The position numbers and the translations under genes are program-made. Positions 19,615 to 25,149 of a stretch of 25,149 nucleotides of DNA are shown in pieces (within the stretch, counting starts at the first letter, position 1; each line of letters begins with the position of its first letter). The DNA lies in IMG/VR virus record IMGVR_UViG_3300010883_000417, positions 1-25,149 of that record; one strand, given 5' to 3'. Origin of the DNA: a virus. Under the pieces are notes generated by a model, which saw nothing but the letters and a program-made list of their open reading frames with translations, was not told the DNA's origin and made no database searches.

Positions 19615-20319
19615 CTAAAGGTATTTATTGGTTAAGTACCCGTTGTCGTAGTAGAATTGGTACTTTATTTTAAAACTTTCTTTTAGCTTAGTTACTACCC
19701 TGGTTAGCTGGGGAGTTTCACAGTCAGTCATTTCTCTTATGTATATGTAAAGAGCTTTCTTTTTAAAAATTTCTAAGTCGTGTCTTGTTTTGAATATAGT
19801 TAAAGTAGCATCTGCTATCTTCTTTTCAGACTCTTTTGGAAATGTTTCATCTAGTACCTCGTAAACTTCTTCTACCCAGTTATCTATAAACTTACTTAGT
19901 GGCATTCCTGAGGCATTATCCAAATTTAAGGAGTCTTCATAAGACTCTTCTATATCATCAAATGACCCTATCTGTTTAAGCTTTTTATAGTTTTTATTGT
20001 TGTAGTTTATTAACCAGCGTTTAACTATTGTGCCAAAGTAAGAATATGCTTTTGCTCCATTAGTTGGGTCAAACTTCATAATCTTTTCTTCTAATAGTAC
20101 AGATACTAATTCATGTTTGAGATCTTCTATCTGTTCTACATCTGTGTAGTAGAACTTAAAAGTATGTATTATGTTCTCTGCTAGTTTATAAAATGGGATG
20201 TAAATATGATCAGTAAATATTTTATTTCTATACTCCTGATCTGTGGAGGTATTATATCTGACTATATATTCTTCTGTCTCTTTTGTAAAGTAATTAGCTT
20301 TCGCTCTCTTTCTTGCCAT
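19615..20319 (-). CDS. gp55: late-transcription sigma factor, gp55-like
   Basis: The 234 residues fit the T4 gp55 type of reduced sigma factor: NYFTKETEEYIVRYN, KIFTDHIYIPFYKLAENIIH, then a region-2-like block with DLKHELVSVLLEEKIMKFD and AYSYFGTIVKRWLINYNN. The last contains the aromatic and basic residues that contact the -10 element. In T4, gp55 directs host RNA polymerase to TATAAATA late promoters together with the sliding clamp. It is longer than T4 gp55 (185) owing to a C-terminal helical extension. It overlaps the membrane-anchored gene by 26 bases and belongs to the HD operon, which has a host-type promoter at 21494-21522, as expected for a factor made before late genes. Confidence 0.82.
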   Translation of the reverse strand: MARKRAKANYFTKETEEYIVRYNTSTDQEYRNKIFTDHIYIPFYKLAENIIHTFKFYYTDVEQIEDLKHELVSVLLEEKIMKFDPTNGAKAYSYFGTIVKRWLINYNNKNYKKLKQIGSFDDIEESYEDSLNLDNASGMPLSKFIDNWVEEVYEVLDETFPKESEKKIADATLTIFKTRHDLEIFKKKALYIYIREMTDCETPQLTRVVTKLKESFKIKYQFYYDNGYLTNKYL

Positions 20320-23979: not shown

Positions 23980-23987
23980 TATATAAA

Positions 23988-24155
23988 CCTATATACCGAA
24001 AAGTTAGCAGCTATAGGAAATTAGACCAGTGCTCCCCGAGACCCTTACGAGCCCTGTAGGGAACGATACCGGCACTGTTATGGCAACATGACGTCAACCT
24101 TACAGCAACCGGCTATCATCCAGACGGAAGTATGAAAACCGTCTTGGTATTTTTT
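23988..24155 (+). ncRNA. candidate structured RNA ending in a terminator
   Basis: In very AT-rich surroundings, 24001-24147 is distinctly richer in G and C and contains no long open frame. Nested complementarity is evident: CCTATA (23988) with TATAGG (24012); CAGTGC (24027) with GCACTG (24072), enclosing CCCTTAC/GTAGGG. As an alternative or additional fold, GATACCGG (24065-24072) pairs with CCGGCTATC (24109-24117) and encloses CTGT/ACAG. A terminator hairpin follows. The CAGTGC and GATACCGG helices overlap and could be two states. It does not match tRNA, tmRNA or any RNA family I can recall. It may be an independent late transcript or a structured 3' end of the upstream operon. Confidence 0.6.
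24120..24155 (+). terminator. rho-independent terminator
   Basis: CCAGACGG (24120-24127), an 11-base loop, CCGTCTTGG (24139-24147, one bulged T), then TATTTTTT. The T-run supports the plus strand only. It ends the plus-strand operon and structured RNA, five bases before the 3' end of the minus-strand gene at 24161. Confidence 0.82.
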
Positions 24156-24160
24156 ACGAG

Positions 24161-24307
24161 CTATGAAAGCCTATTGGTAAGCTCTATGAGATGCTTATTA
24201 AACCTTTTCATTTCTTCTATGTGTGCAACCTTCGATCCTTTTGATTGCTTGTTGTTGGCTCTTATGGCATATTGATTAGATGCTCTAGAATAAGATGGAT
24301 GTTTCAT
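24161..24307 (-). CDS. 48-residue basic small protein
   Basis: The frame reads MKHPSYSRASNQYAIRANNK, QSKGSKVAHIEEMKRFNKHL and IELTNRLS. A helix is likely from about residue 28 on; the N-terminal half is basic and polar. The start is supported by a complete promoter (24336-24364) and by the AAGGTTATG start context that also precedes the lipoprotein and T5orf172 genes. No family is recognised. Unlike the next gene on the same strand it contains normal amounts of cytosine in its coding strand. Confidence 0.72.
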   Translation of the reverse strand: MKHPSYSRASNQYAIRANNKQSKGSKVAHIEEMKRFNKHLIELTNRLS

Positions 24308-24364: not shown

Positions 24365-24411
24365 CTAATATGATGCTGATGTTTATAACTCTTAGGTTTT
24401 TTTATTGTGAG

Positions 24412-24459
24412 GAGAAAATTATATATAAATAAAATTAATTAAATATATATAATCCCCTC
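24412..24459 (-). terminator. hairpin ending the cytosine-free transcript
   Basis: In the minus-strand RNA GAGGGGAUUAUAUAUA (24459-24444) pairs with UAUAUAUAAUUUUCUC (24427-24412) over 16 positions, three of them G-U. The plus-strand version would have three A-C mismatches, so the structure belongs to the minus transcript. No T-run follows, so termination is inferred from position, 16 bases past the stop codon. The first cytosines of the transcript lie in its 3' arm. Confidence 0.55.
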
Positions 24460-24474
24460 TCTATTATTATTATA

Positions 24475-24948
24475 TTAATTCACCAACCACAATCTATTAT
24501 TAATTTTAATCTTTTCTTTAATTAACATACCACTTCTTCTACACCAATTTTCAAACCTATCATTATAATCATTCACATTCCACCTTCCACTTCTAAAATT
24601 ATATAATAATCCAAACACACCTTTATTATTAAATTTATTCATATATTCACTCAATAATACCTTTTTATCATCACCAATATATTTCTTTAATTCTTTCTTA
24701 AATAATATATCCATATTATTATTTCCATATAATTTCTTATCTCTTACAACAATCACATCATATTTCTTTCTCTTCATATAATTATAATCCACATCAATAC
24801 TTACCAATTCTCTCACAACTTTATAATCAACCAAATCATAATAATCTTTCCATTCTACATCTTTAAACACAACAATATCATTACCAATTTCATCAAATAA
24901 ATAATTCTTTTTACCAAAATAATTTAATACATCTTTAAAATTTTTCAT
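24475..24948 (-). CDS. 157-residue protein encoded entirely without cytosine
   Basis: The intact frame (MKNFKDVLNYFGKKNYLFDE to the end IKINNRLWLVN) uses no codon containing C. It therefore has no Ala, Thr, Pro, His or Gln, and Ser, Leu and Arg come only from AGT, TTA/TTG and AGA/AGG. It is rich in Lys, Asn, Asp, Tyr and Val. The pattern of alternating strands and helices looks like a folded alpha/beta protein, not low complexity. One Cys and four Trp are present. No family is recognised. A perfect phage promoter lies 50 bases upstream and a hairpin 16 bases downstream, so it appears to be a single-gene transcription unit. Confidence 0.85.
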   Translation of the reverse strand: MKNFKDVLNYFGKKNYLFDEIGNDIVVFKDVEWKDYYDLVDYKVVRELVSIDVDYNYMKRKKYDVIVVRDKKLYGNNNMDILFKKELKKYIGDDKKVLLSEYMNKFNNKGVFGLLYNFRSGRWNVNDYNDRFENWCRRSGMLIKEKIKINNRLWLVN

Positions 24949-24998
24949 ACTTTTTCTTTTTAATTATTAATTATTATTATTACTTTTATTATTACTTA

Positions 24999-25027
24999 AA
25001 TATACAATTTTTATTTCAAATAAACAA
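24999..25027 (-). promoter_or_regulatory. promoter TTG-N20-TATATT inside the cytosine-free island
   Basis: TTG (25027-25025), exactly 20 bases, TATATT (25004-24999) followed by TAAG, minus strand. The TTG begins one base after the stop codon of the upstream gene, as at the primase and HD operons. The spacer also lacks C. Confidence 0.8.
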
Positions 25028-25028
25028 A

Positions 25029-25149
25029 TTATTCTTCAATTAAATAATTTTTATTTTCATCATAAAATACACTATACCCACCATCACCTTCTTTAATATC
25101 TAATTTACAAACAACATCATTTATATTCTTATCATTTCCATCTTCATCA
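25029..25149 (-). CDS. C-terminal end of a second cytosine-free gene (partial)
   Basis: An open minus-strand frame enters from the window edge and reads DEDGNDKNINDVVCKLDIKE, GDGGYSVFYDENKNYLIEE and stop (TAA at 25031-25029). It again uses only C-free codons, and Ala, Thr, Pro, His and Gln are absent from the 39 visible residues. It is acidic and looks like the end of a folded protein (VVCKLDIKE, YSVFYDE). The family cannot be told from this piece. It shows that the composition constraint covers more than one gene. Confidence 0.7.
   Translation of the reverse strand, partial: DEDGNDKNINDVVCKLDIKEGDGGYSVFYDENKNYLIEE

Follow-up and report, generated by a model that had tools for sequence, protein, structure and literature searches.

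The sense strand of a small phage operon at the right end of the DNA studied here contains no cytosine, and comparison with related phages argues that the unit kept free of C is the transcript, from promoter to 3' hairpin. We think it somewhat probable that natural phage mRNAs have here been purged of one nucleotide, leaving a few genes expressible during a nucleotide-specific attack, and that Flavobacteriia harbour an undiscovered cytidine-directed RNA defence.

The window, by which we mean the whole stretch of DNA analysed, is a linear IMG/VR fragment of 25,149 bp (IMGVR_UViG_3300010883_000417), and its right end falls within the island. The last G on the plus strand is at position 24414; from 24415 to 25149 (735 nt; 316 T, 275 A and 144 C) there is none, and the minus strand, which is the sense strand, therefore lacks C over 735 nt. 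The base count bears out the sequence-only reading, which had reported no plus-strand G up to the window edge, and so does its placing of both island genes on one strand, since we find a complete minus-strand ORF and the 3' part of a second. Its figure of 735 bases stands as a count but not as the full size of such an island, intact ones in relatives measuring 1079 and 1890 nt. Elsewhere in the window, G is missing for at most 66 nt in a row, and runs lacking C or G reached at most 69 in 300 first-order Markov simulations of 25 kb; the probability of a 735-nt run at a given place is about 10^-60. In a control of 839 kb of related phage DNA, the longest run missing one base while the partner base made up at least 8% was 122 nt. 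The observation of the island is solid. The features of the window are as follows.

24415..25149, minus strand: C-free island (sense strand without C), truncated at the contig end; from base counts and relatives.
24475-24948, minus strand: gene B, 157 aa, a complete ORF without C, with homologues in seven other contigs.
25029..25149, minus strand: 3' part of gene D (...DVVCKLDIKEGDGGYSVFYDENKNYLIEE), with the stop at about 25029-25031; assigned by homology.
24997..25028, minus strand: promoter-like signal of Bacteroidetes type for gene B, recognised by eye from a motif seen at other islands; TTTG (25025-25028), a 20-nt spacer, then TATATTTA (24997-25004).
24409..24461, minus strand: hairpin 3' of gene B, with the first sense-strand C (24414) in its stem.
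23986..24170, strand unassigned: conserved non-coding element downstream of the island, of ordinary C content, a neighbour outside the C-free unit.

The same C-free gene adjoins the same flank in independent contigs, which supports the join at 24414. An assembly or bisulfite artefact can be set aside, the pattern recurring in independent metagenomes and, as a nearly C-free homologue, in an isolate, with homologues differing by all kinds of A, G and T changes. Neither is this low-complexity or tandem-repeat DNA: the ORFs are conserved, and dN (0.05-0.26) is lower than dS (0.22-0.45), as in real genes. In most carriers the contig breaks in or at the C-free island (at the ends of the window, L002, L004, L112 and L113 and at the start of L110), seemingly through strain variation or the loss of three-letter reads. 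The non-coding element of about 160 nt, perhaps a small RNA, gave no match in Rfam; it recurs in L003 (10549-10707), L007 (2990-3162) and L112 (647-774), with 77-84% identity between carriers, and four relatives that lack a C-free island (L087, L090, L037 and L069) have it too.

The viruses with islands belong to a marine, Flavobacterium-type myovirus group whose nearest isolate is Flavobacterium phage immuto (vB_FspM_immuto_2-6A, Immutovirus, NC_055915). Searching with immuto proteins (tblastn) showed that the tail genes and their neighbours keep the same order in the window, which is thus Immutovirus-like in this shared neighbourhood; identity is 63% for the window gene at 19615-20319, 57% for baseplate gp6 and 58% for the HD phosphohydrolase. 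Immuto gp143, a distant relative of gene family A, is nearly C-free (1.4% C, that is, 5 C in 357 nt), but we found no B gene beside it and no absolutely C-free operon in the parts of immuto scanned. In all there are nine islands in nine contigs (the window, L002, L003, L004, L007, L110, L112, L113 and L011). Gene B homologues occur in L002, L003, L004, L007, L110, L112 and L113, all without C. The L110 island measures 1077 nt; that of L003 (1079 nt) carries genes A and B, and that of L007 (1890 nt) genes A, B, A2 and D, its one C falling in D's last codons. Other D homologues lie in L003 (7057-7365) and L071 (2058-2360), and those outside islands, in these two contigs, are C-poor (about 4%), the L007 copy being at 2650-2937. 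Scanning for the shared leader TAAAAAGTATG brought in L011, which belongs to this phage group as a distant member and has one C-free gene, of a different family; scanning for a second leader yielded L116, with an A-like gene holding one C, and the partly C-free L117. These surveys detect only genes with the two chosen leader sequences and therefore undercount.

Other genes of these genomes have about 15% C, so that the C-free genes are discrete outliers. Among 50,697 phage records, families A, B, D and X have no isolate representative beyond immuto gp143. The possibility that relatives carry the same genes at ordinary C content was pursued: comparison of the DNA of related phages found no C-rich homologue of A or B, and none for complete gene B. 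An island is present at two (in the L003 and L007 contigs) of the 20 related loci whose sequence extends 5 kb or more upstream of a conserved marker gene. From phage to phage, island genes can differ less than their flanks do (L002/L003 difference: 7% for B vs 21% for the HD gene), which suggests that they are accessory genes exchanged between phages. A pattern scan of GTDB genomes for bacterial C-free genes returned a single match, a false positive: a C-less minisatellite, (GAAGTGTGAAGTAT)n, of Nostoc sp. FACHB-110 (L114 6500-6664). A limited literature search for C-free phage transcripts found nothing comparable, an absence that proves little.

The products are small. A, D and X encode acidic proteins (net -14 to -21) and B a basic one (+7 to +9; +9 in the window), a charge that is partly forced by the missing codons for Ala, Thr, Pro, His and Gln. 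No family was found for the A, B, D and X products (the window's B included) in Pfam, PHROGs, NCBIfam or PADLOC, and no fold match by AlphaFold with Foldseek, the models reaching pLDDT 70-73 only; neither by family nor by fold do they match known anti-defence proteins. A radical SAM gene in L003 was considered as a viperin and rejected: its PADLOC pVip match (E 5e-4) covers residues 17-124 only, not the full length, and its best NCBIfam match is a generic twitch radical SAM family, below cut-off. The island genes are accessory, with a putative role in counter-defence or takeover.

The sequence-only reading had placed the constraint on the sense strand or its RNA, and the relatives support and sharpen this. 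Together with the window, the islands total about 6700 nt and contain 5 C: one in 5512 coding nt and four in 1188 non-coding nt, the latter all in L002, immediately upstream of the gene B -10 box (TTTGTAAATTGAAGAATTCTCCC/TATATTAAG). Coding and untranslated parts are equally C-free, which makes the transcript the constrained unit. At all five visible 5' ends (L002 gene B, L003, L007, L110 and L011) the last C lies in or beside the -10 box, at a distance of 31-57 nt upstream of the ATG, as in L003 (...TTTCTTATC/TTTATATAA), L007 (...TTATTC/TTATATTTATATAAG) and L011 (...AATTAC/TTATATTTAAG). The promoters, judged by eye, have the form TTTG-N19/20-TANNTTTA, which is the Bacteroidetes promoter consensus; the same form precedes neighbouring ordinary genes, and so no special polymerase is indicated. 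At the other end, the first C after the genes is base-paired in a hairpin stem in all eight cases folded (P 0.92-1.0), and L011 and L113 have theirs as early as the 5' arm; L112 has an AT-only hairpin and continues C-free to the next promoter. The AT-only hairpin (TTTTAATATA..TATATTAAAA), which is terminator-like and needs no C, also lies inside the L007 operon (2184-2288), its position after the L112 gene being 249-305. The 3' hairpins lack clear U tracts. From this layout we infer that transcripts start at the promoter and end at the hairpin; the position of the first C in the stem may merely mean that the transcript ends there.

Our best explanation, a tentative one, is that of 'stealth' transcripts: the phage operons are accessory, host-type promoters of the ordinary kind drive them, and their mRNA, free of single-stranded cytidine along its whole length, would be made and would survive during a cytidine-directed attack on RNA. 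Of the four bases, cytosine alone is wholly dispensable to a protein gene, since start codons require T and G and stop codons T and A; hence only an attack directed at C could be escaped by sequence. We conjecture that the attacker would be a C-directed single-strand endoribonuclease, more likely one of a host defence than a host-shutoff enzyme encoded by the phage itself. The gene products, small and for the most part acidic, may counter it or function while it acts. The likely logic would be that of a counter-measure immune in its own expression, or of a host-shutoff programme exempt from its own action. Zero C over up to 1890 nt, untranslated parts included, implies that each single-stranded C is costly. 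The patchy presence of the islands (two of 20 related loci) fits such operons. Against this explanation, C occurs in every other gene of these phages, and those genes need expression too; a few C are also tolerated in the nearly C-free genes of immuto (gp143, 5 C) and L116 (1 C).

The main rival, which we regard as unlikely, is expression without CTP: if CTP were scarce, or swapped for a chain-terminating analogue such as the ddhCTP of prokaryotic viperins, a message without C could still be transcribed in full. This would account for the absolute zero and for its start at the promoter. The pVips make ddhCTP, ddhGTP and ddhUTP, and phage RNA chains are terminated (PMC12926258, PMC11249213); of these analogues, the one of C is the only one that a coding gene could evade. 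CTP starvation or a CTP analogue fits as well as an endonuclease except in two respects. C is missing from the 3' untranslated stretches as well, by which point the protein is fully encoded; sensitivity to an endonuclease would explain this, while C at that place would matter little to a chain terminator. Also, eight of the nine islands end in C-containing hairpins, two of them with C in the 5' arm, that could not be completed without CTP, whereas single-strand cleavage at C would tolerate paired C, including the 5' arms in L011 and L113. The L003 radical SAM gene, not being a viperin, does not help this rival. Single-strand cleavage at C is thus a slightly better explanation than a CTP analogue or CTP starvation; nuclease escape and CTP-free expression had both been among the candidates of the sequence-only reading.

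Whether C is kept out by selection or lost by mutation can be judged from divergence between homologues. Their comparison showed the absence of C to be conserved: the codon alignments of A and B have 441 variable columns, none with C, while in two flanking-gene controls from the same phages 162 of 314 and 147 of 290 variable columns contain C. At second codon positions the lost C is replaced by A (+0.113), G (+0.059) and T (+0.034), and at third positions T and G rise. Where C-containing D homologues have C, the L007 island copy has T, G and A alike. That A and G, and not T alone, took the place of C argues against C-to-T hypermutation, and we infer that selection rather than mutation keeps C out. 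It is accordingly improbable that the islands arose through a cytosine deaminase that attacked the non-template strand in the course of transcription and turned every C into T, and the strand-specific C-to-T conversion raised earlier is disfavoured, even if long divergence could blur both the second-position and the D comparison. The C of the -10 box also persists, although it is single-stranded in open complexes and only a few bases from the C-free zone. What speaks for a deaminase, besides the third-position rise in T and G, is that synonymous C is reduced across the whole small-gene cluster (immuto 66-76 kb, equal to L005 7400-16000; L096 700-11000). NNY codons there end in C at a frequency of 0.22 vs 0.38 in structural genes of immuto, and of 0.19 vs 0.32 in the L003 contig; this weaker deficit may be a separate background skew.

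The residual C of the nearly C-free genes, seven in immuto gp143 (L005 8997-9353), L116 892-1266 and L007 2650-2940, are all in RCT context (7/7), mostly in Thr ACT and Ala GCT codons. We do not take the context as evidence (nominal p 2e-5), as it is largely a consequence of the Thr and Ala codons. Further explanations were rejected. A codon or tRNA cause would not reach the 1188 non-coding nt, C-free bar one promoter, and NNT codons still need G34 tRNAs; an amino-acid bias would not explain zero C at synonymous NNY positions; and avoidance of restriction sites would leave some C in place.

It is very improbable that the islands serve to escape termination by Rho, a process dependent on C-rich unstructured RNA, or to avoid RNA structure in general. 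The primary site of Rho prefers YC dinucleotides, and C-free RNA could neither load Rho there nor form G-C pairs; these benefits require low C rather than zero over 1890 nt, single scattered C being harmless, and strong 3' hairpins are retained. The suppression of base pairing proposed in the sequence-only reading thus leaves the absolute zero unexplained.

Least probable of all is that the genes avoid template G replaced by 7-deazaguanines, sparing an unmodified host polymerase the modified base: the idea is attractive in view of the whole 7-deazaguanine pathway of immuto (FolE, QueD, QueE, QueC, QueF and DpdA; NC_055915 18607-37015), and a DpdA homologue (69%) lies in the relative G006 (63616-64401), but that 73-kb contig has no C-free run of at least 90 nt, the candidate gene of immuto itself holds 5 C, and template G is present in all other early genes. 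The modification genes, DpdA among them, were not found in the available parts of the island contigs, but those parts do not cover that region. In immuto, a formyltransferase-like gene, gp204, adjoins DpdA and QueF.

Transcripts that would be spared by a cytidine-directed attack have partial counterparts among known systems. Prokaryotic viperins, through ddhCTP, impose a C-directed block of RNA synthesis that a C-free message could escape, but no viperin was found in these phages. Phages lose restriction sites, a defence-related purge of sequence from the genome; here one base is purged fully from whole transcripts and nowhere else. In C-less and G-less in vitro transcription cassettes, three nucleotides suffice until the fourth is first called for, but those cassettes are artificial and non-coding, whereas the islands are natural, coding and kept in evolution. 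We know of no class of selection or mutation that fits the removal of one base from whole transcripts, promoter to 3' hairpin, over strong divergence. The islands point to a cytidine-directed attack on RNA, new or of a known, ddhCTP-like kind, strong enough to act on every single C. C-free transcripts flag candidate counter-defence genes in uncultured phages, for which sequences can be scanned, and they open a direct test: if our reading is true, an operon recoded with C would reveal the host in which its expression fails.
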